DNA of 64,000 nt. Source: Chrysemys picta bellii. Taxonomy: Eukaryota > Chordata > Testudines > Emydidae. Every line of letters begins with the position of its first letter. Positions within the stretch are counted from its first letter, which is position 1. Position numbers and translations under genes: made by a program. Shown piece by piece: positions 31,201 through 58,072 of the stretch. A model generated the notes under the pieces. It was not told the origin of the DNA, did no database searches, and worked only from the letters and a program-made list of their open reading frames with translations. The stretch is from assembly GCF_011386835.1 (NCBI RefSeq), contig NC_088809.1, positions 19,188,637 through 19,252,636 of the forward strand, read 5' to 3'.

Positions 31201-34200
31201 AGAGTTTGCAATTCTAATGAAGGGTAGAAGGGAGAACAGCAAAATAGAGACAATGGATTTCAGGAAGGCAGATTTTGGGAAGCTCAGAGAGCTGATAGGT
31301 AAGGTCCCATGGGAATCAAGACTGAGGGGAAAAACAACTGAGGAGAGTTGGCAGTTTTTCAAAGGGACACTATTAAGGGCCCAAAAGCAAGCTATTCCGC
31401 TGGTTAGGAAAGATAGAAAATGTGGCAAAGACCACCTTGGCTTAACCACGAGATCTTGCACGATCTAAAAAATAAAAAGGAGTCATATAAAAAATGGAAA
31501 CTAGGACAGATTACAAAGGATGAATATAGGCAAACAACACAGGAATGCAGGGGCAAGATTAGAAAGGCAAAGGCACAAAATGAGCTCAAACTAGCTACGG
31601 GAATAAAAGGAAACAAGAAGACTTTTTATCAATACATTAGAAGCAAGAGGAAGACCAAAGACAGGGTAGGCCCACTGCTTAGTGAAGAGGGAGAAACAGT
31701 AACAGGAAACTTGGAAATGGCAGAGATGCTTAATGACTTCTTTGTTTCGGTCTTCACCGAGAAGTCTGAAGGAATGCCTAACATAGTGAATGCTAATGGG
31801 AAGGGGGTAGGTTTAGCGGATAAAATAAAAAAAGAACAAGTTAAAAATCACTTAGAAAAGTTAGATGCCTGCAAGTCACCCGGGCCTGATGAAATGCATC
31901 CGAGAATACTCAAGGAGCTAATAGAGGAGGTATCTGAGCCTCTAGCTATTATCTTTGGAAAGTCATGGGAGACGGGAGAGATTCCAGAAGACTGGAAAAG
32001 GGCAAATATAGTGCCCATCTATAAAAAGGGAAATAAAAACAACCCAGGTAACTACAGACCAGTTAGTTTAACTTCTGTGCCAGGGAAGATAATGGAGCAA
32101 GTAATTAAGGAAATCATCTGCAAACACTTGGAAGGTGGTAAGGTGATAGGGAACAGCCAGCATGGATTTGTGAAGAACAAATCATGTCAAACCAATCTGA
32201 TAGCTTTCTTTGATAGGATAACGAGCCTTGTGGATAAGGGTGAAGCGGTGGATGTGGTATACCTAGACTTTAGTAAGGCATTTGATACGGTCTCGCATGA
32301 TATTCTTATCGATAAACTAGGCAAATACAAATTAGATGGGGCTACTATAAGGTGGGTGCATAACTGGCTGGATAACCGTACTCAGAGAGTTGTTATTAAT
32401 GGTTCCCAATCCTGCTGGAAAGGCGTAACGAGTGGGGTTCCGCAGGGGTCTGTTTTGGGACCGGCTCTGTTCAATATCTTCATCAACGACTTAGATATTG
32501 GCATAGAAAGTACGCTTATTAAGTTTGCGGATGATACCAAACTGGGAGGGATTGCAACTACTTTGGAGGACAGGGTCATAATTCAAAATGATCTGGACAA
32601 ATTGGAGAAATGGTCTGAGTTAAACAGGATGAAGTTTAACAAAGACAAATGCAAAGTGCTCCACTTAGGAAGGAAAAATCAATTTCACACATACAGAATG
32701 GGAAGAGACTGTCTAGGAAGGAGTACGGCAGAAAGGGATCTAGGGGTTATAGTGGACCACAAGCTAAATATGAGTCAACAGTGTGATGCTGTTGCAAAAA
32801 AAGCAAACATGATTCTGGGATGTATTAACAGGTGTGTTGTGAGCAAGACACGAGAAGTCATTCTTCCGCTCTACTCTGCTCTGGTTAGGCCTCAGCTGGA
32901 GTATTGTGTCCAGTTCTGGGCGCCGCATTTTAAAAAAGATGTGGAGAAATTGGAAGGGGTCCAAAGAAGAGCAACAAGAATGATTAAAGGTCTTGAGAAC
33001 ATGACCTATGAAGGAAGGCTGAAAGAACTGGGTTTGTTTGGTTTGGAAAAGAGAAGACTGAGAGGGGACATGATAGCAGTTTTCAGGTATCTAAAAGGGT
33101 GTCATAAGGAGGAGGGAGAGAACTTGTTCACCTTAGCCTCTAAGGATAGAACCAGAAACAATGGGTTTAAACTGCAGCAAGGGAGGTCTAGGTTGGACAT
33201 TAGGAAAAAGTTCCTAACTGTCAGGGTGGTTAGACACTGGAACAAATTGCCTAGGGAGGTTGTGGAATCTCCGTCTCTGGAGATATTTAAGAGTAGGTTA
33301 GATAAATGTCTATCAGGGATGGTCTAGACAGTATTTGGTCCTGCCATGCGGGCAGGGGACTGGACTCGATGACCTCTCGAGGTCCCTTCCAGTCCTATAA
33401 TCTATGAATCTATGAATTTCCTTTCCTTACACAGACTAGTTAAGCTACCCACACCTTTCCTCTGTGACTTCTTTTACAGTCACATTCTAATATAGATTTT
33501 CTGCTGAAAAAGAAAAATTGTGTACTGTTGTAGCTCCCTCAGACCTTTTAAAGGCTGCTACCCTGAACCAACGGCAACATGGTGCTTCCGTTAAAGATGA
33601 CCACCCTCCGCTCCAGTCAAAGGCAGGCCCTGTAAAGATTCAGATCTAAACAAGAAGAGCGTTTGCCTTTTAGGAGCTACCATTTGCCCATCGATCACGC
33701 CCTCGTCGGAGCATTTCTGGACTCCAGTAGTGCAGAGTGCATCTTGTCAGACCTTGGCCTCATTTTTAAACTAAAGAGATTTAAAAAGTTTTAAAAATTC
33801 TCGTTCCTGCATCCCCTGCCTCCAACAAGAGTAGAAGAATTGATTGCAAAAGTGACTTTTTAAACCAAGGGGGTGGTAAAGGGCTGGTGCTATTGGTTAC
33901 CTCCTGGAGTTCCTCTATATTAAAACAGGCCACCAGATGAACAATTTGATCAAGTCCAATTGCCTCTTCCAAACTGAGAACGGATGACCCGTATATGGAA
34001 CATACCAGCGGCCAATTCAGCTTTGTTGAATCTAGACCTATATGGTTAACCCAGGCGTTTCCTTTGTAACAGTGCCTATACAATAGGTCCATTTGACACG
34101 TCGCTGCATATAGTAATGAGCCAAATTCAGAGCATGTATAAAAGGTGAAACGCCACTGAGGTCAGCCACTCACACCAGGCCTGAGTCTGGCCCAATGGCT

Positions 34201-40200: not shown

Positions 40201-43200
40201 TTCGCATACTGCTCAACCACTGCAGGAGTCAGGGCCCTCGTGAAAGGACAAGTGACCTTGGGATTTCACAGCGGGAAGAACACAATCTCCTGTGCCCAGT
40301 ACGTGTTTTTTCGTTAGGGTCACAGACCCAAGCCTGGTGAAATGGAGCGAAGTGATGGGTTCCTCTTGCTGGGGAGACTCCTCACCATATGGTTTTGCGG
40401 GTGTATTCAAAGCCACAGTACCGGGTATAAAGTTTTGTTATGCCAATGAGTCACTCACCAAAGACTGACCCTAGATCTGCGAACCACAGGGCAGGCCAGC
40501 TGACCAAGCTGCCAGGGTGCAGTGAAATGAATTGGGAGCAGTGTGTCATTCAGCTACACAAGATGTTAAGGAGTTGGGCAAAGGGGAGTGGGATGGATCT
40601 GCCCGGAGCAAAGCCTGAGACGCCTGCCGTTGCTACAGCAGAAGTAATATTTTGGGGGGCAGAAAACGCCCCCAAAGACTCCTCTCATCTACTGATATAG
40701 TCAAGCCCACGGAGCAGTATTTCCCTCGGTCCATGTCTCCGACAGATGCCCGCTCACCGATATGTCTCCCCAGACTTCCCGGACGCTTGTCTGAAGCTGC
40801 ACGAGAAAGAGAGGCCTGGGCGTGAGATTACTCACGGTTACATCAGCGGCATCTTTGTTTTAAGAGCCCGTATGTTAAAGCCTCTCTCTCTACCTTGGCA
40901 CGGGAAAAGCTGACTGGGTTTGACCCAAACTAAGTAGTTCTGAACGAGTAAAGCACCTGCCATACATTCATGCTCAAAGAGAAAAAGGCAGATCTGACAA
41001 CACTGCTTCTCCTTCCTTGCAGGGACAGAGGCACCGGGGAAGAAATCAGATGGTCTTTGACAGGTTTCAGAGTAGCAGCCGTGTTAGTCTGTATCCGCAA
41101 AAAGAACAGGAGTACTTGTGGCACCTTAGAGACTAACAAATGGTCTTTGACATCCATTTCTAAATGGAAAGGTCTGCAGTTGCCCGTTTAGGACAGAGTG
41201 GATTTTACTCCCATGACACCAGAGTGGAAAGGACTCTGGGTAAAAGGCTACATGCAAAAGTTGGGCAAGTCCCACTAACACGTCTAAAGCTCGGGGTTTG
41301 TATCACCCCCTATCCAGCCAAAGTACCGCAGCCCCCATCCCCACAGCAGCTGAGCCTCTCCCGGTCTTTAACGTAGCAATCCTCACAGTATCCCTGGGAA
41401 ACAGGGCACGTTCCCAGGGAGGGGAAAAGGGGGGTCAACTCCCCTCACTGAGCCAGCCCTTGCTAAGGTTCAGGACACAGACACTTCCCTAAAGAGCATT
41501 AGGGAAGCAGTGCGTAGCAATACCCCTCTGAAGGATAATTAAACCGACCTAAGTCTCCATAGGGACAGCGCTAGGTCGGTGACAGAATTGTTCCATGAAC
41601 CCAGCTATCGCCTCTCCGGGAGGTGGATTACCGACGCCAATGGGAGACCCCCTCCTGTCGGCGTAGGCAAGGTCTACACGCCACTGGAATTTGACCCACA
41701 TGTTTCTACCCAAAACAGTGCCAAGCTGGGGACCAGTAAAACTGAAAGCTTGGATTCAAACCCCAAAGTCAAATAACTCCAAGGCCTTCGAAGTACAATA
41801 GTTCTCTTATGTTTTGCAGATGCACGATCATTTTGTACCACCTGCCCGAACAAACAGCTGCTCATAGAGTGATGGTGGAGGCCTGTCAAGCAGAAGCCTG
41901 AACAGCTGCAGAACTGTTTTTACTGGGGCACAAACAGGAAGGATTCATTGCAACAATTTACCTTAAAGTGCCTTGGCTATAATGGGGACATGACATGAAG
42001 CATGGTTTTAATGGTAACCGTAATACCTAGCTCTTTTCAGCAGTACATCTCCAAGCACTATTCAAAGGAGGTCAGTAGCATTATCCCCATTTTACAGATG
42101 GGGAAACTGAGGCACGGAGCAGCAAAGTGATTTGCCCAAGGTCACCCAGCAGGCTAGTAGCAGAGCCAGGAATAGAACCAAGGTCTCCTGAGTCCTAGTC
42201 CAGTGCTCCATCCACTAGGCCACACTGCTATTCTGTAAGTACACTGAAGCTGGGGGAGGTTTGACTCACTCAAGCTAGCCACCTGAGCTCAAACCCCGGG
42301 GGCTGGGCAAGCATTGACTTGTGTGGCCAGCAAGGTGGTGCAGTGGCTATAATTTATCAATGGGCTCTAATGAAAACTCTTCCCACCCACCCCTTAGTAG
42401 CCTGAGAAAACTCCTCATGTACCCACCCAGTTGGTCTTCCATCCATGCTCTGAATACCTAGAGCTAAAGCTGCCGATGTGAATAAGGAAGAAACAGCAGG
42501 ACAGAATCACAGCCTTAAACACTGGGCTTGGGAAAACTCTTCCTACAGAAGATCGGTTCCTCTTTCCACCAATGTTTTAAAGGTTGCCCAGGTTCTCTCT
42601 GCAGCACTCTGTATTGATCTATTAGGATGCAAATGGCCATGCCCGACCTGATTCTGAACTTGCACTTCCTCAAAGAACAAAAGAAGCCAGACTGAGCACT
42701 ACAAACCCAGGCCCAAAAATACATTTCCTGCTTCGGCCTGGCCCAAACTCGCCGTTACTTGTGTTTTTACAGAGGACACAGCAGTCTAAATCAGATCTCA
42801 CTCGAGAGAGACATTTTGCGTTGTGATACCCGGCCACGTGGGGATGGCTACACTCCAGCTGGGAGGCGTGCGCCCCAGATTCGCACTAGCTGCGCTCAAA
42901 CTAGCGCCCTGAAAACAGCAGCGTGGATCGCCGCCCAAGTCAAAGCCTGCCCAGCCCCCTGGGTCTGAGTGCAGGTGGCTAGCCCGAGACTGCGCATGCC
43001 GCAACGGCCAGACTGCTGTTTTCGGCAGGCGAGCTTGAGCGAATCAAACCTCCCAGCTGCACCCCTGGATTGTGAGCGGTTAATCCTGAACAACATCGGG
43101 AGTAAAATCACCTGCCCATGTGAGGCCCCACGGCTGGGTATGTTGAAAATTCTGGACTCCCATTTCACCGAGTTAACATCACACTAGCTAGATTTCTTTA

Positions 43201-46200: not shown

Positions 46201-49200
46201 GCACCCTCGTCTGCCAAGTTACGGACCAGCTTCCTCCAAAGCCACCTTCAATATACTAACAGCTCACAGCCCTTGGGCCCTCCAGGAATGTGGGACTCAG
46301 TCCAAATCCTAACCAGGGCCCTCTTGAAAACTGCCCACTTGGTCCCAAAAGCTTAGTCCACATGGGCAAGAGAAGGCAATGCAATGGCTCTTGGGAGCTC
46401 TGGTACTGTGCTGCTGGGTGTGGATTAAGAATCAATCCAGTCCAGCATCAGTGACAAAGCATATTAGTTAGGAGCGAGCTTATCTGAGCATCCCTTAATG
46501 CTCCTGAGAGGACAGAACAGTTTGGTTCTGTTTGTGAACCAGTGTTTCCAAACCGGCTGTGTGTTTAGTACAGGAAACAGTAGCCTACGAGACATATGAG
46601 AGGGGTTGTATTCTTCCAGAGGAATGCCTGTCTTCTGCTTGCACGAATCCACAGAGGTAGCAGAAATGAGGCGGATCTGGAATCAGTTACTCCCCCTCCT
46701 TGATTTCACGGCAGCCCTCACCCCACAAAGAGCTCACACCACCCTACTGACAAACAGATTTATCTGGATATAAGCTTTTGTGGGTCAAAAACCTCACTTC
46801 TTCAGATGCATGGAGTGAAAGTTACAGAACTCCATGCATCTGAAGAAGTGAGGGGTTTTACTCACGAAAGCTTATGCCCAAATAAATCTGTTAGTCTTTA
46901 AGGTACCACCGGACTCCTTGTTGTTTTTGTGGATACAGACTAACACGGCTACCCCCTGATACTTGACCACCCTACTGTTAGTACCTAACCTAGTCTTAGG
47001 GAAGGTCTGTCTTCGGGTGATGTCTGCAGTACCTCTCTGGTCATTCCTAAAGCTTCCTTCCACAAGGATCAGTATGCACTTTGCAAACGTTTATATATAT
47101 ATATATAGACACACACACACACACACCACTGAAATGCAGCCACCTCTGGGGAGGAAAGTCAGCAGCCAACTAGGCCAATAGCCTAGAGCTCTGTGTAGTA
47201 GTTTGGAAAGAGAAGGGGAATTTGGGACAGGAAGAATCTTTTCCTCGTATGCAAAATCCTAGAGATATTTAATGTTCAGACAGGGCTTCACCTGTAAGTG
47301 TCTCGTCTGAATGTAAACTAGAATACTGCACTATTAGAAATCAGAGTAACTGTTTCTTTTTAAAATCAGGACACTGAGGCTCAAAAATAATTTAAAAAAA
47401 CATTCATATTCCCCTGACTACCATCCTTTTGTATTAACCATACAAAGCACTTTAAAAGTCCAATAGACTATTCAACCTTCACGTTTTTTATATTTTTACA
47501 TTGGATCAGCCTGGACAATTAAACTAGCAAGTTCGTGTTCAGCTTCTCCTGCTGATATATGATGTTCCAATGTCTGGGTTATTACAGTGAAACACACCTA
47601 GCTCTGTAGACGTACACAGCACTTTACAAACACATGGGCTCAGGCAAACTTTTACTGGATGAAGTTCTCCCACTTTCTTTCCAGGAGGCCACTCACATGA
47701 GTAACAGCTACACGAGTAATACTTTGCAGGATCGGGCCCATAGATAAATCACGGGCCCATAGATAAACCACAAGCAGCTTTGCAAATACTGCTAGGGGAG
47801 GTTTAAATCCGCAACAGGGAATTGTTGTCACTGGAAATCAGACAAACACTGTCACAAAAACATTTCCATTAGTCCTAGTTCTGGTAATGTCCTTTTTAAA
47901 CCACAAATCTAAGAGCCAACAATACTTAGTGCTTTTCATTTCTATATCTCCAAGCATTTTACAGAGGAAGGTCAATATTATCCCCACCTGGAAAATGGGG
48001 AAACCGAGGCACGGTGTGGAGCGGTGACGTCCCAAGGCCACACAGAAACTCAATGGCAGAACAGGGGAAAGACCCGAAGTCTCTTGGCTTCCAACCCAGT
48101 CCCAAAGGAGTTCTTTGTATTCTGCTGGGGGCAGGGGAGTTGCAGAGAGAGGAAAGAAAGCACCCAGATAGCCAAAGAGATCCCTTTGGAGTCATTGCCT
48201 GGGTCCTGGCATTGTGATCGTCAGACCATGCAGACTGCACCTTTCAAGCATCAGGCCAGGCAGAAAGCAAGCAATACGGAGAGATGGAACGCAACGGTAA
48301 CAAACTGGCCTATGACTTGAGGTAGTCCTTGCAGCAAAGTGTACAAACCACAGTCTTTATGTAAAAAATGAATTGTTGGCTATACAATAGATACACGACA
48401 ACTTGTAAACAGCAAACCTGCAGAGGTTTCTGGGCAATGCCCAAAATAGTTGGACAGATAAGAAACAGCTGAATTTCTGAAACAGTTTTCAGAAATCACT
48501 GCCTGCCGTTATTTTGGGATCTCTATTCAGCCGTCCTCTCCGCTACTGGGGAGTGCACATGATACCACACTGCACTTCTCCGCATGAGGCCTGGCCAAAC
48601 GATGCATAGTAGGACTGAGAAAATTCAGCTCTTTAGAAAGCAGAGAAACTAGAACAATTCCAAGATCAGAACAGCTGGGAAATGAGCCCCCTGACTTCCG
48701 AATGCTTTCCAGTGGGACATGAATTCTCTCAATCCGATTTTGCACCACAACAAGGCTGCTGAGACAGCAGTTTCCTCTAGGAGTGTTAATTGCACCTCAG
48801 AGACTTTAAAGCAGGGGTAAGCAACCTATGGCACGCGAGCTGATTTTCAGTGGCACTCACGCTGCCCGGGTCAAGACCACCAGTCTGTGGGGCTCTGCAT
48901 TTTAATTTAATTTTAAATGAAGCTTCTTAAACATTTTAAAAATCTTATTTACTTTACATACAACAATAATTTAGTTCTATATTATAGACTTATAGAAAGA
49001 GACCTTCTAAAAAGGTTAAAATGCATGACTGGCACGAGAAATCTTACATTAGAGTGAATAAATGAAGACTCGGCACACCCCTTCTGAAAGGTTGTCGACC
49101 CCTGCTTTAAAGAAACATTATTTAGTGATCAACTGAGCTCTGCAGTTTGATGCAGTGACCACATTACATTGGCGTTTTCCTTTCAACTCATTTTGATTGT

Positions 49201-52200
49201 CCATCAGGAATAGCTTTGTGTAGAGAATTAGGGAATCATTCCCACTTTCAACGCTTCCTTATTTGTTCTGTAGTTTGAGAGAGGATGGGAGATGTTATTT
49301 GTTGATGGACCTGAAGTATCATCAAGCATAAAGGCAGCACACAAGCTACATACAAGAGCAACAGCAGTCAGGAGATCTGGAGTACCTCTACACTGGAAAA
49401 ATATGCCCCCAGCCAGTGAGTCTCAGGGTTTGTCTACACAACAAAAAACCACACCAGCCCCAAAACAACACACACAACTGGTGGTACAGTCTCAGAGCCT
49501 GGATCCACTGACCAGGGCTTGCTGGGCTAAAAATAGCATTGTAGATATTCAGGCTTGGACTGGCGCCTGGGCTCGGAGACCCACCCTGCTCACTGGGTTT
49601 CAGAGCCCGGGGTCCAACGTCTATCCTGTTATTTTTAGCCCGATAGACAACTGGGGCTCTGAGCTGAGTCTCGCTACTGCAGGTTTCCCCCCCACCTCTT
49701 CTCTTCAAGTGTTGATAAACCCCTACAGTGTATTCCTGACTCTTGTGGCTGACTCGCTGTGTGACCCTGGAGAAGGTCCATCTGTGCCTCGGTTTCCCCA
49801 TTTGTAAAATGGAACGTACATCTACCTCCTGGGTGGGAGGGGTTTGCGGTCTTAGCTCTTCGCTGTTTGCGAAACACTTTGAATGAAGGGTGCTTTACAA
49901 CTAACAATCCACCTATTACTGCTGCTACCCTTGTGAATATTTGTAAAGGGACAGAATCCTGCGCAGGTTGGAATGTTTTTTGGACATCAGCTTGTTCCAC
50001 TTGGGGAACTGAGTCAGGTTGACACTTCTGCTGCTGGGAGGGAGCAAAAACGGGATGTGGCACAAAAGATCCGTATCACACTAAAACCCAGAAAGGAAGC
50101 AAGCAGGAGAACAGAGATGAGAGGTGCACGTTGGCTTGGTAGTTTACAGAGCCTTATCAGGTCAGGTATACACTGGAGTCTCCTCCCTAGAGCACCTCAG
50201 CTTCATTGCTTTCCTGGGGAAGGGGCCATGAACACGGCCAGCTGAGCCACTCCAAGAAATGTAACACCACGACACAGAAGTGGGGCAGCTGTTAAAGGCA
50301 GAACAATGAAATGATCGATAGGAACTCCTGCACCCACCTCTGCACCGTTACAACACAATCGCCCCCTCCCCAACATAGCCGCAACACCCATAGAAACACT
50401 TCTCTTGTAGCGTAGGCAGGAACCAAACATGTCCCCCACACGGTTCCCTTTGCTCTTTGTCGGGCTGTAGCCCAGTTCAGGAGACACAGCTAAGAGTCCA
50501 CTTACACCACAAGATGGAAACCTGTCTCACCTGTGTCAGGGAACAGCCAAACAAGCGATGGCTGTAGCATGAACAGAATTCTACAACGGGGTGAAGCAGA
50601 ATCAAGAGAGGCCAAATCCCTTGATAGAACAAGGGACCAAGTGCAGCACTTCTGCTCCACCTCGGCTACTCCCTCGAAAACATTCAGAAGCTGCCCAAAA
50701 GCCCCCACCAGAAAGTGACCTCAGTGGAAAGGGGAGAAAACAGAAGCCCCAAGCAGCCAGCCTTCACAAGGCAAGCCTCAGATTGTGTTTGCAAAAAATG
50801 ACGTTTTTGCTGTGCTTTCCTTCCTTTATCATATCCAACCACTGTTATGTGGGTCTGGATTCAAATGCCTGCTACATGGCAAATTCTAGCAGGTTGGACT
50901 ATGCTCTCTCGAAGGCCCTCAATGCAATCGGTTTCTGTACCTGACTCCGTTCGACGCCGACAGTCCTGGGCTCGGGGCTCCGGCTCCCACAGGCTGAGGC
51001 AGCGCCCATGCACTCTGTGTATTGAGTCTCGGCGCTGACCTGGCTCCAGACAAGGTTGGTTTGTTATAGGGCACAAAGCTGAGACCAGAAGAGCTTAGTG
51101 CAGCTGTCCGACTGGAAACCTGCGGCACAGCTGATGAACTGGGGAGGTTTATCATGGAGTGCCGATAGCGCGTGGTGATGGGGCCAGTTCCACTATTCAA
51201 CAAGCACTGTTGACAAGAACAAGCCATTGCCGTGTGAAGGGGCCCCGTGGCCGTGGTCACCGGATACGGGGTGTCCATGCGCCTCTGAATACCTCGTCGG
51301 AACCTGGAGGTCTTGTTGGTCTGGACCAGCGATACAAAATCAATGTCGTAGTTGTAGCCCAAGGAGCTCAGGTCTACATGCCGAAGGCCATGCGTGAAGG
51401 CTTGCTCCAGGAACACACAGACCTTCATCTCATATGGAGACCACCCGCCTTCGTCATTCTGCCACTCCCACACGATGCCCTGCCCGGCCGCGGAGTCTTG
51501 AGCGAAGAGGTGTCTGCGGACGGATCGCATGGTTCCTGGTTCAAGAGAGAAAGACACTGGACGTTAGTCAAAACCACGCAAAAACATGGCAATGCAGTAT
51601 CTATGGAGAAGCGGCACCTTAGGGTGCTTTAAAAGTGCTTATGTGAGTCAAGCACCCAACTCCCTTTGACTTTCCATGGGAATTCTGCATCCACTTCCTT
51701 AGGGCACTGTAGGAAATCACACGCAAAAGGGACAGTGGAACTTTTCCGAAGTGACTGCCAAAGGGCCAACCACCCAGGTCTGGTTGCTTAGCAGATGTGG
51801 GTCTTTCGGAGATTGAACAATCCTGGGAAATGCTTTTAAATGGCCACTTTGCCAGGTACCACACCCACACGTGTGTGCAACAGTCCGGGAGAAAGGCAGA
51901 GGCAAAGCTGGGAAAGCAGTTTGAAAAGTCTAGAGAGAGCAGCTGTTCAGACAGAGGGAAGGGGAACAAAACCACAGCAGAGTTGCTGGTTCAAGGGTTA
52001 TTCTAGACCAGCAGCGGGAGCTAAAGCCTGCTCACATATCAAAGGCTCTGCTTCCCAGCAGCAAAGTGATCTGAGAAGCACATTTCCCCTGGTTATTTTT
52101 ATTAAAACCTGCTCAAGGAGGATAGAGTCCAACCAATAAAAGGGGAAATTAAAAGTCAGCAAAAATGTCTTCCCCTAGCAGGGACTGAACCAGCCCAGGC

Positions 52201-55200: not shown

Positions 55201-57898
55201 AGAGAGGGGGCCATTGGCTATTGCGGAGAGCAAGGCCTGAGAGTTAGGACTTCTGGGTTCTACTCACGGCCTGGTCACTGAGCAGGATGGAAAGAGGCTG
55301 TCCTGGTGCCTGCTTGGTGATCTCCACGGCAGTTTTCAGAGAATTATAAGCCCCATCCAAACAAGGCTGCTGGGCGTCTAAAGAATATTCAAAGCTCCTA
55401 GTGCTAAGCCAGTGACAAACACTCCCAAACACACTCCTCGTGCTGATGAAATCTCTCACCCGGGACACCTTCCTAGCCAGGTTTCAAAGCTCCAGGTACT
55501 TTCCAGAGCGGTGCCCAGCCTAGCTGTGTGCTACTCACCCTAACATTAGGGCAAGAAAGTAGGACTATGAGCCGGGAACATGATCAAGACGGCCATGTCC
55601 GTCCTTGCTTACAGACCTGTTATTTAGCAATCATCTTCTCACCTCTCACGCTCTGCGAACACAGCTGATTTACTGTATTCAAGAAATCTGAACATTTCTG
55701 CCCTTCTCTAAGGCCCTCAGAGCGAACCACGCCTTGCCACCTCGCGGGAGGCAGGTGTTCGCTCCGTTTTACAGATGGGTAAACTGAGGCACAGATAGGC
55801 TTGTGCTTTCAGAAGGCGCCACTAATGCTGGCTGTCCACTTTGAGACACCCAGGCCTGATTTTTCCAGAGGTGATGAGCCCACAAAAACCCCATCGACGC
55901 TGTAGGTGCTCACTACTTCCAGTGGGGAAAAAAAGTCAGCCCCTAGGTGCTAAAGGTGATCATCCAGATGTAATGGCCACTAAACTGTTGGCCTGAGTGA
56001 CCTCCGTGGGTCGTGCAGTGAGTCAGGAGCAAAGGCGGGAACAGAACCCAGATTTCCTGGCAACTAATCCTGCACCTTGCCCTCAAAAGCCAAACTCCCT
56101 CCACCCTGGAAGAAGGGGGAAAAAAAGCGGGAAAGGAAAATCAATGTGAAGGGGCAGTGTTCTAGCACCGCCCTACGTCATTCTGTGCGGATTGCAGGCA
56201 TTAGCTCAGCTGTGTCCACAGGGCGCTAGGCCAAGCCAGAGCGGCTGGTCCTGCAGCCGGGAAAGGGTGGGGACAAGGGAATCAAACATGAGTGTTTTAA
56301 TCACAAAAAGGCCTTTTTATGCAACTCCTCTGAAGGGATGTGCACAGGAAGGGGTGGGGGGGTAGGGTGACCAGATGACAAAGGTGAAATATCGGGATGC
56401 GCGGGGCGGGGAGGGGGAAGCCGCCGGAGGGCCCCCCCGCACCAGCTCGCCTCGAGACCCCTTGGAAACCTGAGGCATAGTCTGTGGGCCCCCAGATTAA
56501 AAACCACTGCCAAGTTCAGCCAGCCCCTCCAACCGCACCCCAGGTGTCAGGGGAGCCCAGCAAGGGACAGGCATGACGGGGACCACAGCCGAGCAGTGCA
56601 AAGAGGAGCAGAAACGGGGTCCCAGCCGCGGAGCTGCGCCCACAGAATTCTCCAGTGGTGGCTGCAGCGGGTGGGAGCTGGGCTGGGGGGAGCTGAGCTG
56701 GGCCGAAGGAGGAGCGGCAGCTCCCTGCAGCCCGGCTAGACCCCCTGCAGCACTAGATGGGGGGGCTGGCGCGCCTGCAGGGCAGAGTCTTTTTGTGACG
56801 GCCACCGCCAGGCGGCACAGCCCCGTCTCCACCCGACTCTATGGTGGCCACAACAGCTGAGCGCGCCCTGGCCCGGAGCTGCCAAGCCCACATGCTGCGC
56901 TAGATCCCCGGGGCAGCCTGGCTCACTTTCTGGCCACCCTCCCAGCCCGGGCCGCTCCGTGAGCCCTGGGCGCGGCGCAGGAGACCCAGGCCTGCCTCGC
57001 CTTCTACCGGGGGCTCGGGCGGAGGGAGCCACTGCGGGATCTCTGTCGGGCCATCCTCACCTTCCTGGAGAAGCTGGAGCAGTTCGCAGGGTGAGTGCTG
57101 GGCGCCACCCCCTCCCTCCAGCGCTTGCACCGTCATACAGCTGATCAGCGCAAGCCTGGGAGGGAGGAGGAATGCGGCGTGCTTGGGGAAGAGGCAGGGC
57201 CAGGGCGGGGATTTGGGGAGGGATCCAATGGGGCAGTGAGGGGGCGGGGCTTGAGGCGGGCCAGGGCGGGGATTTGGGGAGGGATCCAATGGGGGAAGGA
57301 AGGGGTGGAGTCGGGGTGGGTGCGGGGGCACGTGAGCCCCTCCGGGCTCCGCCTGTGCACCGGAGCAGAGGGCAAAATTGCTTGTTTGTCCAGTGAATAT
57401 TGGGACAGTCCCGATAAAATCGGGACATCTGGTCATCCTGGGGGGCGGGGGGGGGAGGGAAGAGGGCATACGGTTCTAAGATCCCAACCTTGCAAAGCAT
57501 TTAAGCACACGTGCAATTTTAAGCACGAGTGATCCCAGTGAAGCTTTAAGTGCCCAGCGATCTGAATACAGCCGGGAAAGAGGGTTCTTACCTGTGTCCT
57601 GTCGGAACTGCATCAGGCTTGGTATGTCGATGACGTAAGGGGCGAGCGTGGCATCTGCCTGCCCCAACGGGATACTGCTGCTGGCCAGCCCGGTTCCCGA
57701 TCGTCTCCCCTTCTGCGCAGGGGCCTGGAGAGCCTGTTCGATAAAGCTGCATACGCTCCCTCTGTATGGCCTCCACCTGCCGAACTCGTCCTGCCATTCC
57801 CATACAGCCACTGCGGGCAGGGCGGCATGCCCTGGCACGGAATTGGAGAGCCCAGGCGGCCCAGCAGAACCGCTTCCGGCACCCAGCGCTGCTGCCAT
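1024..57898 (-). CDS. DTX2: DTX2, Deltex E3 ubiquitin ligase 2 (nine coding exons; gene span)
   Basis: Nine exons joined through GT-AG junctions give 1,800 nt, 599 residues plus stop, close to the 622 residues of human DTX2. Order: WWE1 (about 25-102), WWE2 (about 113-185), Pro/Ser-rich linker with a short conserved [12 protein letters not shown] block (about 311-321), basic segment (about 345-365), RING (390-450) and DTC domain to the C-terminus. The family is known to bind Notch ankyrin repeats through the WWE pair and to act as RING-type E3 ligases; the DTC domain binds ADP-ribose and supports ubiquitination or ADP-ribosylation of ubiquitin. DTX2 rather than DTX1/DTX4 is chosen because of the VAVWEWQD start of WWE1, the short linker without a long poly-Pro tract, the [12 protein letters not shown] block and the C-terminal [13 protein letters not shown] ending. 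All exon phases are compatible and no frameshift or internal stop is seen, so the gene looks functional. Confidence 0.95.
1249..2139 (-). other. DTX2 intron between exons 8 and 9
   Basis: Contains one tRNA-derived SINE (about 1372-1567). The rest, about 1570-2139, is unique-looking sequence without recognised features. Confidence 0.7.
1372..1567 (+). mobile_element. tRNA-derived (MIR/CORE-like) SINE
   Basis: A head of the form GGCCTAGTGGTTGGGGCACC then GAGTCAGGAGTCCTGGGATC resembles Pol III A- and B-box regions. It is followed by a SINE body ending in ATCTCAAAGCACT and a tail GTATTAATGA. This layout is that of the amniote CORE-SINE/turtle Pol III SINE type. It has diverged from consensus. 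Confidence 0.7.
2140..2229 (-). CDS. DTX2: DTX2 coding exon 8: DTC core
   Basis: 90 nt, 30 codons (496-525) encoding [20 protein letters not shown] and [10 protein letters not shown], the hallmark Deltex C-terminal motif. Acceptor is CTGTTGCAG|GGA and donor AGAAAG|GTAATG, phase 0 on both sides. Confidence 0.96.
2464..2600 (+). mobile_element. tRNA-derived SINE fragment
   Basis: Contains GGGAGACCTGGGTCCAG, GTGACCTTGGGCAAGCCATG and CCTCAGTTTCCCCATCTG, the middle part of the turtle/CORE-type SINE. The 3' body is lost. Confidence 0.65.
3040..3995 (-). mobile_element. CR1 LINE 3' fragment, interrupted by a hAT element
   Basis: Read on the minus strand, 3967-3995 and 3055-3339 encode decayed remains of the CR1 ORF2 C-terminus (LRVEIRRF, then [14 protein letters not shown] and DLDKFLPG) and the CR1 3' end with its GACCTCCTGGGTC-type terminal motif. 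The copy is old, with several stops and frameshifts. The hAT at 3340-3958 was inserted into it later. Confidence 0.7.
3332..3966 (+). mobile_element. Non-autonomous hAT element with perfect 8-bp TSD
   Basis: Terminal inverted repeats CAGGGGTGGGCAAAC (3340-3354) and GTTTGCCCACCTCTG (ending 3958) flank a GC-rich, C-tract-filled interior. GTCTAATC is duplicated exactly at 3332-3339 and 3959-3966, the 8-bp duplication expected for hAT transposons. No transposase is encoded. Confidence 0.88.
4159..4320 (-). CDS. DTX2: DTX2 coding exon 7: end of RING and start of DTC domain
   Basis: 162 nt, 54 codons (442-495). [18 protein letters not shown] supplies the last zinc-ligand pair C447 and C450 and then the Deltex-specific [14 protein letters not shown] that opens the DTC domain. 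It continues through [22 protein letters not shown]. Acceptor CACCCACAG|GAT and donor ATTCAG|GTACGT are strong and phase 0. Only 153 nt separate it from exon 6. Confidence 0.96.
4474..4632 (-). CDS. DTX2: DTX2 coding exon 6: first half of the RING finger
   Basis: 159 nt, 53 codons (389-441), starting DCIICMEKL and ending LAMYANGNK. Zinc-ligand candidates are C390, C393, C423, H425, H428 and C431. The remaining pair lies in the next exon, giving a C-C-C-H-H-C-C-C pattern. The ligands recruit E2-ubiquitin in RING-type E3 enzymes. Acceptor is TTTCAAG|GAC and donor AACAAG|GTACTG, both phase 0. Confidence 0.96.
5079..5310. repeat. GC-rich imperfect palindrome, about 90-bp arms
   Basis: Arm 5079-5170 is matched in reverse complement by about 5219-5310, with about 50 bp between them. 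Shared blocks include GACCCCGCGGATCAGCGCC, and GGCGTTCAGGAGGC against GCCTTCTGAACGCC. It lies inside the Tigger-like element. Confidence 0.8.
5553..5826 (+). mobile_element. Penelope-like inverted-repeat insertion with 12-bp TSD and hammerhead-like motif
   Basis: AACGTTAAGTGA is duplicated exactly at 5553-5564 and 5815-5826. Between them are a forward arm (about 5685-5814) and an inverted partial copy (5565-5655). The forward arm runs from CTGAAGAAGTGAGG through CCCACGAAAGCTTATGCTCC, CTGTTAGTCTTAAAAGTGCC and CAGACTAACACGGCTACC. The 5' inverted partial copy plus a 12-bp TSD is typical of Penelope-like retroelement insertions; the class is inferred because no RT or GIY-YIG remnant is present. 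Confidence 0.7.
5687..5725 (+). ncRNA. Candidate hammerhead ribozyme motif
   Basis: CTGAAGA (5687-5693) fits the conserved CUGANGA. An imperfect stem II (5694-5711) follows, then GAAA (5712-5715). A three-pair helix III AGC/GCT closed by a TTAT loop (5715-5724) leads to C5725, the expected cleavage position. An inverted copy lies in the left arm on the minus strand (about 5613-5652). Helix I pairing is not convincing in this copy. Confidence 0.5.
6918..6988 (-). CDS. DTX2: DTX2 coding exon 5 (71-nt linker to the RING)
   Basis: Acceptor CTTTCTTCAG|TG and donor GATGAG|GTGAGT bound 71 nt. The exon completes Val365 and encodes [23 protein letters not shown] (366-388). This matches the acidic EPEQV-KYTEEL linker that precedes the RING in DTX2 homologues. 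It ends in phase 0, as exon 6 needs. Confidence 0.92.
8526..8706 (-). mobile_element. tRNA-derived SINE with CR1-like 3' tail, copy 1
   Basis: On the minus strand the 5' end reads GGGATAGCTCAGTGGTTTGA (A box) and then GTTGTGAGTTCAGCCC (B box region), as in a tRNA-derived Pol III head. The 3' end reads GACCTTTCAGGGTCCCTTCC and AGTTCTAGGAGATAGAT, the CR1 LINE terminus. The shared tail implies mobilisation by CR1 reverse transcriptase. Confidence 0.85.
10676..10790 (-). mobile_element. CR1-type LINE 3' end fragment
   Basis: Plus strand reads TTTTAAAGGCCAGAAGGGGCC, then TCTGACCTCCTGAAGAGCAC, the inverse of a common reptile CR1 3' terminus. Decayed, no ORF. Confidence 0.55.
11099..12478. mobile_element. 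hAT-like element, TAGGGTTACCAT ends
   Basis: Perfect 12-bp terminal inverted repeats TAGGGTTACCAT (11106-11117) and ATGGTAACCCTA (12460-12471). CAGAAAA flanks both sides (11099-11105 and 12472-12478), a 7-bp duplication that may be an 8-bp hAT site with one base changed. The 1.3-kb interior is GC-rich with GGGTGCAGG-type degenerate tandem repeats (about 11390-11760). No transposase is recognisable. Confidence 0.75.
11390..11760 (+). repeat. Degenerate G-rich tandem repeat
   Basis: Irregular reiteration of GTGCAGGCTCTGGG and GGGTGAGGG-type units inside the hAT-like element. ORFs reading through it on both strands are low-complexity artefacts. Confidence 0.75.
13597..13690 (+). mobile_element. 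tRNA-derived SINE fragment
   Basis: CCTTGGGTCTATTCCCAGCTC followed by GTGTGACTCTGGGCAAG, matching the centre of the CORE-type SINE. Short and decayed. Confidence 0.5.
16841..17031 (-). mobile_element. tRNA-derived SINE with CR1-like 3' tail, copy 2
   Basis: Same family as the copy at 8.5 kb: minus-strand GGGATAGCTCGGTGGTTTGA head, GAGCTCAATCC B box, and a CR1-type tail CTAGATGACCTCCTAAGG with CCCTTCCAACCCTGATATTC and TATGATTCTATGA. It contains a T-rich insertion between head and tail. Confidence 0.85.
17464..17705. mobile_element. MITE-like element
   Basis: Blocks CTTACACCGACCTAAGCGC, GGGGACAGCGCTATGGTGG and GCGGAGGTGGATTTG are shared with the element at 41.53-41.70 kb, and the ends carry CTACACTG- and GTAGAC-type motifs like the other Harbinger-like repeats. 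No ORF. Confidence 0.55.
20285..20400 (-). mobile_element. SINE/LINE-tail remnant
   Basis: Contains GCGCTAGGCGCTGTACAAAC and CCCACAGAACTTACAATTGG, which recur in decayed form at 34.30-34.45 kb. The family is not certain. Confidence 0.4.
20405..20820. repeat. Short palindromic repeats centred on TTGAAGTCAA
   Basis: One palindrome centres on CATTGAAGTCAATG (20439-20452). A second has arms GCCCAGATCCTCACA (from 20740) and TGTGAGGATCTGGTCC (to about 20819). Similar decayed palindromes occur elsewhere in the window. Confidence 0.6.
21425..21570 (+). mobile_element. CR1 LINE 3' end fragment
   Basis: GGTTGGACAAACACCTGTCAGG, CTGGACTAGATGACCTCTCC and GAATCTATG follow the CR1 ORF2 end and 3' UTR, matching the terminus of the large CR1 copy near 33.4 kb. 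Confidence 0.8.
22190..22410 (+). mobile_element. Possible LINE reverse-transcriptase C-terminal remnant
   Basis: Broken reading frames give [13 protein letters not shown] and PQLWNS-type phrases similar to the ALHGL and LWNSLP motifs of L2/CR1-type RT C-termini. Short and decayed. Confidence 0.3.
22803..22934 (-). CDS. DTX2: DTX2 coding exon 4: conserved [14 protein letters not shown] block and basic tract
   Basis: 132 nt. Acceptor CCCCTGTAG|GC completes Gly321, then [21 protein letters not shown] follows, matching the conserved AGMT-LM-A-GLPV segment of Deltex proteins. A Lys/Arg-rich stretch comes next ([17 protein letters not shown], to about 364). The predicted donor is AAG|GTAGTT, weaker than consensus at +4 to +6, but it is the only one that keeps phase 1 for the next exon. 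Confidence 0.9.
23379..23599. mobile_element. Harbinger-like MITE
   Basis: Ends GGCCTGGTCCACACT (23382) and AGTGTAAACCTACCC (to 23596), with TTC/TTA at the flanks, a decayed 3-bp site. The interior has a hairpin, TTCGAACTAAGATACGCAG with TACCTTAGTTCGAA (about 23407-23439), and repeated GGATCGAT motifs. Confidence 0.65.
23630..23870. repeat. Cluster of decayed short palindromes
   Basis: TTTACGCTGGTGTAAACC, CAATGGAGTTACACTGGAG, CACACCAGTGCAAC and CCCATTGACTTCAGCCGG resemble arms of the small ATTGACTTCAAT-centred palindrome family seen elsewhere in this window. Confidence 0.45.
24763..24900 (-). mobile_element. tRNA-derived SINE fragment
   Basis: Plus strand shows TTTTACAGATGGGGAAGTGG, GTGACTTGCCCAAGGTCACC and GCAGAGCTGGGAATTAAACC, the inverted body and B-box side of the CORE-type SINE. 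Confidence 0.75.
26205..26585 (+). mobile_element. L2-like LINE 3' end with RT C-terminal remnant
   Basis: An open stretch ends [20 protein letters not shown] and LKT, matching the WNSLP-(x)-SLxSFKxxLKTHLF pattern at the end of L2/CR1-clade ORF2. It is followed by TTTAGATTGTAAGCTCTTTG, CAGGGACTAT and ACAGCTCCTAGCGCAATGGG, the L2-type 3' UTR. Confidence 0.65.
26600..26800 (-). mobile_element. tRNA-derived SINE (near complete)
   Basis: Plus strand reads GATCTCAAAGCACTTTATAA, CCCCATTTTACAGATGG, GAAACTGAGGCAAGG, GGAATAGAACCCAGGTC and CTAGCCACTAGGC, covering the core, B box and A-box side in reverse. Confidence 0.85.
27148..27215 (-). mobile_element. CR1-type 3' end fragment
   Basis: TTTTTACGGCCACAAGGGACC and AATCTAGTCTGACCTCCTG match the inverse of the reptile CR1 terminus also seen at 10.68 kb. 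Confidence 0.55.
27220..27457 (+). mobile_element. Penelope-like inverted-repeat insertion, second copy
   Basis: TCAGTTTCATTA is duplicated exactly at 27220-27231 and 27446-27457. The inverted left arm (27232 to about 27347) begins with the terminal TAGCCGTGTTAGTCTGAATC; the forward right arm (about 27351-27445) is truncated at GTTGCTTTTTT. Sequence is nearly identical to the 5.6-kb copy, so the two are recent relatives. Duplication length and inverted partial copy fit Penelope-like elements. Confidence 0.72.
27356..27394 (+). ncRNA. Candidate hammerhead ribozyme motif, second copy
   Basis: CTGAAGA (27356-27362), imperfect stem II (27363-27380), GAAA (27381-27384), helix III AGC-TTAT-GCT (27384-27393), then C27394. 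The inverted left arm stops just inside stem II and lacks the CTGAAGA box, so only one strand carries the full core. Helix I is not well paired. Confidence 0.48.
28067..28339. mobile_element. Palindromic MITE
   Basis: Starts GGGTACGTCCACACTGCAAT. The left half (CAATCAGAGG, then TTTAGCTTGCACAGCTAAAAA) recurs in reverse as TTTTTAGCTGTGCTGG and CCCTCTGATTGCA. Whole element folds on itself. Ends resemble the GGGT(A/T)-GTC-ACACT repeats at 28.8 and 49.4 kb. Confidence 0.65.
28866..28914. repeat. Perfect 22-bp inverted repeat, 5-nt loop
   Basis: Arms 28866-28887 and 28893-28914 are exact reverse complements around CGTTA. Each arm contains GATCGATATATCGCG, itself locally palindromic. Confidence 0.9.
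29088..29107 (+). repeat. Poly-C run (20 nt)
   Basis: Uninterrupted run of C within the MITE, prone to length variation and sequencing error. Confidence 0.95.
30370..33418 (+). mobile_element. CR1 LINE, nearly full ORF2, 5' truncated
   Basis: About 3 kb in sense orientation on the plus strand, antisense to DTX2. It contains the ORF2 endonuclease and reverse transcriptase and ends with the CR1 3' UTR (GGACTGGACTCGATGACCTC, CCAGTCCTATAATC) and terminal ATCTATGA-type repeats at 33401-33415. ORF1 is absent and the 5' junction is only approximate. High ORF integrity suggests a fairly recent insertion. Confidence 0.92.
30399..33327 (+). pseudogene. CR1 ORF2 (endonuclease-reverse transcriptase) with two frameshifts
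   Basis: Three consecutive frames cover one polyprotein. Frame 1 (to 31118) has the APE-type endonuclease: [27 protein letters not shown] and [11 protein letters not shown]. Frame 2 (about 31100-31420) has the SDHE catalytic motif. Frame 3 (31420-33327, stop TAG) has the reverse transcriptase: [35 protein letters not shown] (Asp about residue 283), [10 protein letters not shown] and FADD (residues 369-372), then the C-terminal [20 protein letters not shown] region. Frameshift 1 lies near a G run (31097-31112); frameshift 2 near 31413-31432, where an AAAAGA-type codon pair seems to have lost one A. The catalytic residues are intact, but the element cannot make the full protein as written. Confidence 0.92.
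34295..34450 (-). mobile_element. SINE/LINE-tail remnant
   Basis: CACTAGGCGCTTTCTAGATGTACAAG and GAGCTTACAGTCCAAACAG resemble the remnant at 20.3 kb. Decayed; class uncertain. Confidence 0.35.
35391..35449 (-). CDS. DTX2: DTX2 coding exon 3 (59-nt small exon)
   Basis: Acceptor TTCTCCCCAG|TGTCCC and donor GCAG|GTAATG bound 59 nt. Phases fit both neighbours: the first base completes Ser301 and the last base starts Gly321. It encodes [19 protein letters not shown] (302-320), the conserved PKPS-QALAG segment of Deltex proteins. The exon stands alone between introns of about 15.5 and 12.5 kb. Confidence 0.93.
35758..35930 (-). mobile_element. tRNA-derived SINE
   Basis: Plus strand: GTAGATCTCAAAGCACTTTG, CACTTTACAGATGGGGGAAA, GTGGGAATCCCAGTCCAAGC and CCACTGGACCGCACTGG, the reversed CORE-type SINE from core to head. 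Confidence 0.75.
36252..36398. mobile_element. Short palindromic MITE
   Basis: Ends GGGCTTGTCTACA and TGTAGACAAGGCCC are near-perfect inverses. A perfect 22-bp inverted pair lies inside (36271-36292 with 36346-36367). 147 bp, no ORF. Confidence 0.8.
38854..39055. mobile_element. Harbinger-like MITE with TTA duplication
   Basis: Terminal GGCCTTGGCTACACT (38857-38871) and AGTGTAGCCCAGGCC (39038-39052) match at 14 of 15 positions in inverse and are flanked by TTA on both sides, as for PIF/Harbinger elements. Interior has repeated CAGCGCTG motifs. No transposase. Confidence 0.85.
39530..39700 (+). repeat. Minisatellite, about 55-57-bp unit, 2.5-3 copies
   Basis: CAGCTTGA-(A/C)-GTGC begins at 39551, 39608 and 39663. 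Each unit is followed by TGCTTGACCC/TGCTTCCTCC/GATTGACCC, and the first two also by GCATATAAGG/ACATATAAGG. Copies are diverged. Confidence 0.75.
41050..41152 (-). mobile_element. Truncated Penelope-like insertion with 13-bp TSD
   Basis: ATGGTCTTTGACA is duplicated exactly at 41050-41062 and 41140-41152. The 77-bp insert reads, on the minus strand, TTGTTAGTCTCTAAGGTGCC, ACAAGTACTCCTG and GGATACAGACTAACACGGCT. It is truncated just downstream of where the hammerhead-like core would sit, and belongs to a different subfamily from the 5.6- and 27-kb copies. Confidence 0.78.
41530..41700. mobile_element. MITE-like element
   Basis: ACCGACCTAAGTCTCC, GGGACAGCGCTAGGTCGGTG, GGGAGGTGGATTACCGACG, GTCGGCGTAGGCAAGGTCT: same family as the 17.5-kb element. 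Partly self-complementary. Confidence 0.6.
42015..42235 (-). mobile_element. tRNA-derived SINE (near complete)
   Basis: Plus strand: CCAAGCACTATTCAAAGGAG, CCCCATTTTACAGATGGGG, GAAACTGAGGCACGG, TTTGCCCAAGGTCACCCAGC, GGAATAGAACCAAGGTCTCC and CATCCACTAGGCCACACTGC. One of the best preserved SINEs in the window. Confidence 0.88.
42841..43070. mobile_element. Palindromic MITE
   Basis: GGCTACACTCCAGCTGGGAGG near the start is answered by CCTCCCAGCTGCACCCCTGG near the end. CGCACTAGCTGCGCTCAAAC and GCGAGCTTGAGCGAATC are inverse arms. Confidence 0.6.
43237..43450 (-). mobile_element. Decayed SINE
   Basis: GAGAAAGTCCCTGCCCTAAAG, GGACTAGAACTCAGCCCTC and CAGCCACTAGGCCCTGCTGC correspond to a reversed SINE head with a diverged body. 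Confidence 0.5.
43990..44215 (-). mobile_element. tRNA-derived SINE
   Basis: GAGAGTGCTTTGCAAAAG, CCATGTTACAGATGG, AAATAAGGCACAGAGAAACG and CCTACCCGTTGGGCCACACT: reversed CORE-type SINE, diverged. Confidence 0.7.
46738..46977 (+). mobile_element. Penelope-like inverted-repeat insertion, third copy
   Basis: ACCACCCTACTG is duplicated exactly at 46738-46749 and 46966-46977. The inverted partial copy (46750 to about 46810) is followed by the forward copy from about 46830: CTGAAGAAGTGAGG, CTCACGAAAGCTTATGCCC, AATAAATCTGTTAGTC, AGGTACCACCGGACTCC and CAGACTAACACGGCTACC. The inverted arm ends at a different internal position from the other copies. Subfamily differs from the 5.6/27-kb copies. Confidence 0.75.
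46840..46879 (+). ncRNA. Candidate hammerhead ribozyme motif, third copy
   Basis: CTGAAGA (46840-46846), then stem II with perfect GTGAG/CTCAC pairing (46848-46852 with 46861-46865), GAAA (46866-46869), helix III AGC-TTAT-GCC (46869-46878, with an A-C mismatch at the closing pair) and C46879. Best stem II of the three copies. Helix I pairing remains weak, so activity is uncertain. Confidence 0.52.
47091..47127 (+). repeat. (TA)n(CA)n microsatellite
   Basis: Alternating TA (47091-47106) runs into alternating AC (about 47109-47127). Likely length-polymorphic. Confidence 0.9.
47925..48110 (-). mobile_element. tRNA-derived SINE
   Basis: AGTGCTTTTCATTTCTATATC, CCAAGCATTTTACAGAGG, AAAATGGGGAAACCGAGGC and CCCAAGGCCACACAGAAAC in reverse orientation to the SINE consensus. 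The head end is lost near 48110. Confidence 0.72.
48804..49112. mobile_element. Non-autonomous hAT element with 8-bp TSD
   Basis: CTTTAAAG is duplicated exactly at 48804-48811 and 49105-49112. The insert begins CAGGGGTAAGCAACCTATGG and ends AAAGGTTGTCGACCCCTG, with an AT-rich middle. hAT TIR and duplication pattern; no transposase. Confidence 0.9.
49426..49695. mobile_element. Palindromic MITE
   Basis: Begins GGGTTTGTCTACACA. GGGCTAAAAATAGCATTG and TGTTATTTTTAGCCCG are inverse internal arms (about 49522 and 49627). The right end is indistinct. Confidence 0.55.
49730..49905 (+). mobile_element. tRNA-derived SINE fragment
   Basis: GTGTGACCCTGGAGAAG, GTGCCTCGGTTTCCCCATTT, GTAAAATGGAACGTAC and CGAAACACTTTGAATGAAGG follow the sense order of the CORE-type SINE. 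Confidence 0.75.
50941..51535 (-). CDS. DTX2: DTX2 coding exon 2: WWE2 and Pro/Ser-rich linker
   Basis: 595 nt, residues 103-300 plus two bases of codon 301. Acceptor AACCAG|GAACC completes Gly103 and gives [15 protein letters not shown] across the junction, the conserved link between the two Deltex WWE domains. WWE2 carries VWEW at 124-127 and runs through [25 protein letters not shown] basic stretch RFRRGIQRR, a Cys-rich ACSCQQCL motif, RYRHSM and [21 protein letters not shown] follow, all typical of DTX2. The donor is GTCAG|GTACAG. The tail after NTQSAW is shorter than in human DTX2 and accounts for most of the length difference between the proteins. Confidence 0.94.
52800..53010 (-). mobile_element. 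tRNA-derived SINE
   Basis: CGCTTTGCAAACATTAAGCC, ATGGGGAAACTAAGGCACGG, GTGACTTGCCCAAAGCCATC, CCAGGAGTCC and AACACGGCC in reverse order to the SINE head. Confidence 0.75.
53401..53624. mobile_element. Non-autonomous hAT element with 8-bp TSD
   Basis: TCCTAGTG is duplicated exactly at 53401-53408 and 53617-53624. The insert begins CCGTGGTCCCCAACCTTTT and ends GCGTTGGGGACCCCTG. The interior holds inverse GCCGAAATTCAGCGGC and CGCTGAAATG blocks. Recognised hAT terminal pattern. Confidence 0.9.
55700..55810 (-). mobile_element. SINE fragment
   Basis: CCGTTTTACAGATGGGTAAAC and TGAGGCACAGATAGGC, the core of the CORE-type SINE reversed. GGAACAGAACCCAGATTTCC at 56038 may be its displaced head. Confidence 0.6.
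56963..57090 (+). pseudogene. Possible captured exon fragment inside the hAT-like element
   Basis: An open frame of about 42 codons, [20 protein letters not shown] and then [20 protein letters not shown] plus FA, runs into CAGG|GTGAGT, a strong splice donor, at 57090/57091. The frame continues upstream past one TGA (56960-56962) as [15 protein letters not shown]. The amphipathic, non-repetitive composition looks protein-like, but I do not recognise the gene. It could equally be a chance frame in GC-rich DNA. Confidence 0.3.
57201..57300 (+). repeat. Direct duplication, about 61-bp period
   Basis: CAGGGCGGGGATTTGGGGAG and GGATCCAATGGGG occur at 57201 and again at 57262, inside the hAT-like element. 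Confidence 0.85.
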
Positions 57899-57980
57899 TT
57901 TCCACGGTCTGAAAGCGAGCCAAGTCAGATCACGTTGTTCACCCACTTCAAACCATCCTCTTCAAGGGCGGATGTCAGGC
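57592..57980 (-). CDS. DTX2: DTX2 coding exon 1: 5' UTR, start codon and WWE1
   Basis: Coding part is 57592-57898. ATG at 57898-57896 has A at -3 and G at +4, a strong Kozak context, and an in-frame TGA lies upstream within the exon, so this is the first usable ATG. An in-frame GTG at 57946 would add 16 residues but is not a normal vertebrate start. Encodes residues 1-102 plus the first base of Gly103. WWE1 has its signature VWEW at 32-35 and continues through CSFIEQ to [16 protein letters not shown] pyrimidine-rich acceptor ending TTTGCAG precedes 57980, so at least one non-coding exon must lie further upstream. Donor is CAG|GTAAGA at 57592/57591, phase 1. The first 20 residues are Ala/Gly-rich and differ from mammalian DTX2, as expected for this poorly conserved N-terminus. 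Confidence 0.93.
57948..57956 (-). promoter_or_regulatory. Minimal upstream ORF in the DTX2 5' UTR
   Basis: ATG-GTT-TGA lies 58 nt before the DTX2 start codon, out of frame with it. A two-codon uORF of this kind can lower initiation at the main start or favour reinitiation. It is seen directly in sequence; any effect on translation is inference. Confidence 0.4.
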
Positions 57981-58016: not shown

Positions 58017-58072
58017 GCTAATAAATACATTTGTTGGTCTCTAAGGTGCCACCAGGACTCCTCGTTGTTAGA
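58017..58072 (+). mobile_element. Penelope-like tail fragment
   Basis: TAATAAATACATTTGTTGGTC, TCTAAGGTGCCACCAGGACTC and CTCGTTGTT match the segment just downstream of the hammerhead-like core in the 46.8-kb copy. The rest is missing. Confidence 0.6.

Follow-up and report, generated by a model that had tools for sequence, protein, structure and literature searches.

The window analysed here is a stretch of 64,000 nucleotides of Chrysemys picta bellii, and it contains a gene of the Deltex family on the minus strand. WWE domains are encoded at 57476–57961 and 50919–51563 and a DTC domain at 2089–2505. Four repeat copies, A to D, lie between the WWE and the DTC exons, which, judged from these exons, places them in introns. 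Copy A carries a hammerhead-like motif which is antisense to the Deltex gene. A sequence-only reading of the window had suggested that this motif may lie in introns of DTX2, antisense to the gene; the position between exons, the orientation and the Deltex family hold. The name DTX2 is tentative; for one exon, DTX1 gives the best match in the PDB. Frames of a non-LTR retrotransposon, with an endonuclease/exonuclease/phosphatase domain in a 239-aa frame and RVT_1 in a 636-aa open frame, are found at 30399–33327 (plus strand).

Copy A, an insertion of 216 bp, is very likely a 3' tail that comes from a Penelope-like element (PLE). The 12-bp duplication and the inverted partial copy seen earlier are both real: the former is the target-site duplication, and the latter belongs to the insertion itself. 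The parts are as follows.

46738–46749, no strand: left target-site duplication ACCACCCTACTG, a 12-nt exact repeat
46750–46965, plus strand: PLE-tail insertion of 216 bp, inverted and sense arm (BLAST, outward reading)
46750–46828, minus strand: inverted arm, head to head with the sense arm, with its own decayed motif in which G12 is changed (CACAAAAGC)
46829–46965, plus strand: sense arm with motif, tail body and terminal tail ...GACTAACACGGCTACCCCCTGATACTTG
46836–46839, plus strand: 5' strand of stem I, GCAT (pairing in 96.9% of the cells over 64 distinct rows)
46840–46846, plus strand: core CTGAAGA (C3–A9), read from the sequence and variable within the family
46847, plus strand: extra A ahead of stem II, found in 80 of 80 copies
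46848–46865, plus strand: stem II, GTGAG (46848–46852) and CTCAC (46861–46865) with loop GGGTTTTA (fold, copy alignment)
46866–46873, plus strand: GAA (G12–A14), AGCT (A15.1..U16.1) and U17, read from the sequence in the putative register
46874–46877, plus strand: 3' strand of stem I, ATGC (fold, copy alignment)
46966–46977, no strand: right target-site duplication ACCACCCTACTG, a 12-nt exact repeat

A BLAST search of 46755–46975 against the window revealed relatives at 5.6, 27.3, 41.1 and 58.0 kb, so that five related PLE-tail places are present including copy A. Inverted partners were found at copy A and at the 5.6 and 27.3 kb places.

5565–5814, plus strand: copy B, head-to-head PLE tail with 12-bp target-site duplication AACGTTAAGTGA, CTGA core in both arms and an A.C mismatch in stem II
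27232–27445, minus strand: copy C, head-to-head PLE tail with 12-bp target-site duplication TAATGAAACTGA, the intact core being found on the plus arm only
41063–41139, minus strand: copy D, short tail of another family with a 13-bp target-site duplication, truncated before the motif
58023–58069, plus strand: copy E, tail fragment (BLAST)

The origin of these tails is indicated by related loci elsewhere in the 2.37-Gb genome. The search with the tail yielded 741 candidates at first look; 40 of these were scored, with 47 matches in the list. The search for the GIY-YIG family gave 10494 candidates; 150 of them were scored, 87 matches were listed and 30 of them were taken as loci. A BLAST match to the tail is present in all of these 30 loci, and the motif is found by pattern in 29. 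In the 28 loci with the C-terminal word EWLSHY, which is absent from L137 and L154, the motif starts without exception 197–254 nt behind the word on the same strand; for an additional EWLSHY, in L128, no motif lies within 600 nt. A related locus encodes RVT_1 and GIY-YIG in a single frame of 603 aa, and another from the GIY-YIG list (L185) bears the B/C type of tail. Reverse transcriptase (RT) and GIY-YIG endonuclease thus stand in one frame beside the repeat in related loci, the window copies being tails only. Since the same tail trails RT/GIY-YIG reading frames, the PLE origin is solid, as the sequence-only reading had supposed. Target-site duplication, 5' truncation, inverted arms and an optional tail are likewise found, as is known from PLEs. 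A check of 12 regions of 7.5–9 kb for a tandem arrangement of pseudo-LTR (pLTR), ORF and pLTR gave no clear 5' pLTR and one upstream tail match (L183, 2733–2800).

The hammerhead-like string that had been quoted for 46840–46879 is present at these window coordinates with all its letters: CTGAAGA (46840–46846), GTGAG/CTCAC (46848–46852/46861–46865), GAAA (46866–46869) and GC-TTAT-GC (46870–46877). The window copy itself carries all hammerhead core positions (CTGAAGA ... GAA). The claim that these elements follow each other in the exact order and spacing of a minimal type-I hammerhead is true for the order, not for the spacing, as the A at 46847 separates CTGAAGA from GTGAG and thereby adds one base ahead of stem II. 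A pattern of CTGANGA, 0–1 base, a 5-bp stem and GAA matches once in the window on both strands together. In 60 dinucleotide shuffles of the window the same strict core (CTGANGA, 5-bp stem, GAA) occurred 0.117 times per shuffle, and never when a 4-bp stem I was added. A looser hammerhead pattern with 2 mismatches gave 71 matches in the window versus 69.7 in the shuffles and is therefore uninformative. These last numbers are what a chance resemblance in unrelated sequence would produce; the rarity of the strict pattern and the recurrence of the motif in homologous PLE tails make that explanation scarcely credible, and we attribute the match in the window to descent. No match to the motif was found in a scan of viral contigs, and a 15-base pattern, too short to be informative, gave at least 117 stretches in bacterial and archaeal genomes.

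The fold of the motif was set from the copies of the family. Altogether 110 copies were found, 80 of them distinct, and 64 distinct rows were used for the pairing counts; all values of conservation are inflated, as the copies were chosen by the motif or by likeness to the window copy. In RNAfold the isolated sense arm pairs GCAU with AUGC around the core with a z-score of 0.02, no better than shuffles, so that energy alone proves nothing. Both stems are paired in most copies (stem I 96.9%, stem II 92.8%, all nine pairs 94.6%), as opposed to 17–55% when the whole structure is slid by 1–3 columns. The helix I of the sequence-only reading is paired in 38.3%, with A15.1–U16.1 paired in 28 of 64 rows, and the two good pairs of its helix III use the same two bases as stem I GCAU/AUGC. 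This assignment was given up, as the 80 copies are better described by stem I GCAU/AUGC, stem II and no helix III. The weak helix I and the A-C closing pair noted earlier are indeed seen; they arise from parsing the fold in another register, GCAT at 46836–46839 being paired with ATGC at 46874–46877. In the corrected register the description as a type-I-like, minimal hammerhead-like motif is retained.

The corrected reading would thus have GCAU/AUGC as stem I, together with stem II and U17, and would lack an internal helix III. The AGCT within 46866–46873 is self-complementary and forms no internal helix III; as RNA (AGCU) it could be available for a dimer. With GCAU/AUGC as stem I, AGCU-U would agree with A15.1–U16.1 and with H17 at the cleavage position, and the putative cut would fall between 46873 and 46874 (GCUU^AUGC). 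In L157 the distance from the extra A to this putative cut is 26 nt, which may indicate that the extra A is an old feature.

The covariation behind this fold is thin, since stem II pair 4 is broken in many rows (G-C in 28, A-U in 14 and unpaired in 21 of 64) and no pair of stem I is changed on both sides; the sole both-side exchange lies in stem II. That exchange is nevertheless of the compensatory kind whose absence from stem II the earlier reading would have counted against itself. In the shuffle control, 500 of 500 shuffles reached the single pair with both partners changed and the 7 further pair types. None of the 500 reached the observed values for paired cells, for cells with both partners changed or for the covariation score, a result that relatedness alone can give.

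The core varies within the family. Only 26 of the 78 classed copies have retained U4, so that the family as a whole does not hold the core C3 U4 G5 A6 N7 G8 A9. The other core positions are kept across three families (of 78: C3 77, G5 75, A6 78, G8 77, A9 78, G12 72, A13–A14 78). The extra A is a constant feature, and stem II does not directly follow A9 in any of the 80 copies; the low share of U4 and this A may set the turtle copies apart from the published PLE hammerheads. In family D, C3–A6 reads CCGA in 28 of 31 copies and CTGA in one. The 42 copies of family A are divided into CCGA (20), CTGA (19), CCAA (2) and ATGA (1), and the only five motif copies seen of family C all have CTGA. The CCGA/ACT group is tighter, with a mean pairwise identity of 0.959 (n=15) versus 0.934 (n=16) for the CTGA/ACC group. 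With only 2 copies for family C, the majorities of the three families agree in 35 of 42 columns of the motif, in 52 of the 76 columns downstream of it and in 3 of the 12 upstream.

Stem II pair 4 follows this division. In the A set including the minus arm of the window copy (43 rows), pair 4 is A.C in 16, A-U in 3 and G-C in one of the 20 CTGA rows, and A-U in 15 and A.C in 5 of the 20 CCGA rows. It is A.C in 5 of 5 C copies and G-C in 30 of 31 D copies. The window copy has the CTGA/TCCAT markers, and the ten other rows of that kind, including its own inverted arm, have C in place of its T; nine of them show A.C and one (L174) G-C. Judged from this alignment, the A-U pair that completes stem II of the window copy is probably due to a private C-to-T mutation. 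The perfect stem II, which had been taken as evidence, thus loses its weight, and what makes this copy look best is probably in part a private change. A single decayed copy can mislead a hammerhead call, and it takes the family to establish the fold.

Rfam models give no additional information in favor of a hammerhead. At gathering scores none was found in the whole window. At E≤10 none was found in two window copies, in L121 or in 20 of 38 family loci; these stretches (301, 75, 101 and 101 bases plus the 20 loci) were scanned as single copies without a positive control, and the models may not fit a form without helix III. Lack of covariance-model support had been named as a ground for abandoning the motif; such lack is what we see for Rfam models on single copies, the earlier statement having concerned the family consensus. 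The Rfam matches at the insertion itself are mostly miRNA families, which reflect inverted-repeat hairpins or simple sequence; all those listed are below gathering scores. The only gathering-level match in the window is tRNA-like (42158–42229, minus strand, 35.2 bits) and may be the head of a SINE.

A closer look at the insertions reveals how the tails are joined. Among 69 tail ends, 30 have no repeat of at least 9 nt, 12 have one of 9–11 nt, which is near chance level, and 27 have one of at least 12 nt. Two of these 27 were set aside as artefacts, namely a 22-nt repeat in L128 and a match inside the tail itself in L140. The remaining 25 duplications measure 12 nt (12 cases), 13 nt (9) or 14 nt (4), and an inverted arm is present in 16 of these insertions. 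Together with L152 there are 17 inverted arms, of which 14 start in a T-rich stretch about 35–42 nt short of the tail end; those of L122, L157 and window copy A start further in. For the PLE of Anolis, PMC11167929 describes that the tail is delimited by two start sites of the RT and that both DNA strands are cut and extended; a difference in start site between the strands was not seen there. For Adineta, head-to-head inverted pLTRs, palindromes and an optional 31-bp tail are described in part of PMC3846280, where self-priming is the authors' explanation. The arm starts fit the two start sites and the both-strand cutting and extension of the former as well as the optional tail and head-to-head palindromes of the latter. 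We infer that the unequal arms come from differing start sites on the two strands.

In four separate loci (L122, which recurs as L156; L157; L158; L160) the junction lies exactly on ATGCAT, a palindrome that marks the 5' edge of the motif, as though the ends of two cDNAs had annealed through it. Cleavage by a ribozyme was considered as a source of the truncated copies and set aside: none of the 21 listed adjacent head-to-head pairs (19 places) joins at the putative cut, a weak test, as most copies were found through the motif region.

Minimal hammerheads in PLEs have been published (Cervera & de la Pena 2014; Lunse, Weinberg & Breaker 2017; as cited in PMC7761336 and PMC6155905), and according to the relevant passages of these two articles they are of minimal type I without helix III and may act as dimers. 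As far as described there, the turtle motif resembles them in its pseudo-LTR position, in stems I and II with little or no helix III and in its many dispersed copies. The element also resembles PAc (Poseidon, Anolis carolinensis), for which PMC11167929 describes, in part, a frame with GIY-YIG and RT and a hammerhead with stem I, stem II and loop II, and whose two RT start sites and both-strand cutting and extension fit the turtle tail ends. The motif of PAc is described there as overlapping the ORF start and as cutting together with protein, whereas the putative motif here lies behind the frame in 5'-truncated copies. With the Penelope elements of Adineta vaga, as far as PMC3846280 describes them, the turtle copies share head-to-head inverted pLTRs, junction palindromes, a short tail on one arm and short target-site duplications, the latter being 8–10 bp there versus 12–14 bp here. 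Hammerheads from amniote introns, as outlined in PMC6155905, are similar in that the motif lies in an amniote intron and probably stems from a retroelement; they are conserved at single loci, in contrast to the present single decayed copy of a large repeat family. HH9 and HH10 are presumably names for such intronic amniote hammerheads.

We consider copy A to be an old insertion of a PLE 3' end with a degenerate, minimal hammerhead-like motif that is dead under its own inverted arm, and give this reading a probability of about 0.8. An endonuclease-bearing PLE would have left its 3' end (pseudo-LTR plus tail) in 5'-truncated form; target-primed reverse transcription, starting on both strands at a staggered cut, would have produced the 12-bp duplication and the two head-to-head arms. 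Head-to-head insertions with 12–14 bp duplications are in keeping with what was seen of the Anolis element in vitro, where both strands were primed. The tail would bear a minimal type I hammerhead-like motif without helix III, likely a degenerate form of the published kind and presumably descended from a hammerhead. In the living element it may cut as a dimer or helped by the protein of the element, and in the window the arm folding over it would have silenced it.

It is conceivable, though unlikely, that the motif is no longer a ribozyme or never was one in these lineages, and is a hairpin for another use of the PLE, e.g. protein binding or the joining of nascent cDNAs by ATGCAT. The prevalence of CCGA in family D and in nearly half of family A, the tightness of the CCGA/ACT subfamily, the junctions on ATGCAT with none of the listed pairs at the putative cut, and the normal insertion in vitro of Anolis hammerhead mutants (in part of PMC11167929) would all agree with such a use. 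The Anolis motif does cut with the protein, according to the same part, and the remaining core positions are kept in 72–78 of 78 copies, mostly picked by the motif, in all three families. A narrower version, which we regard as rather doubtful, would have the motif past catalysis here: C stands at U4 in the tighter A subfamily and in family D, both of which are spreading, and the sequence would be kept for protein binding or for joining two cDNAs by ATGCAT. The subfamilies, which differ in the core (CUGA or CCGA) and in stem II, offer a natural test of whether ribozymes are needed for the spread of PLEs.

Returning to the degenerate motif in copy A, an active ribozyme, cleaving a transcript within the Deltex intron, would explain why this copy combines the CUGA core with pairing in both stem I and stem II. 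Such activity is very improbable in view of the antisense orientation to the gene, the missing internal helix III, the lack of an Rfam hammerhead at E≤10 and the hairpin with the inverted arm. The RNA of 46741–46975 is predicted to form a hairpin of -106.7 kcal/mol (z -13.3) that encloses the motif, and the arm on the gene's own strand has lost G12. Hairpin and loss of G12 on the gene strand make self-cleavage at copy A unlikely. The idea of a self-cleaving intronic RNA thus finds no support here, and the earlier caution that this copy may be inactive was well placed; on this predicted fold, it is likely inactive at this place.

Two further copies deserve mention. In L121 (2096–2158, plus strand) a single copy of another type lacks an Rfam hammerhead match and is, with CTGATGA, a 5-bp stem II of GTGGG/CCCAC and the extra A, the closest to the textbook core among the copies seen. 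The minus arm of copy B (5605–5668, minus strand), which is on the same strand as the Deltex gene, keeps its CTGA core intact and shows GAAAGCTTATGC; its stem II is interrupted by an A.C mismatch, and another arm faces it.
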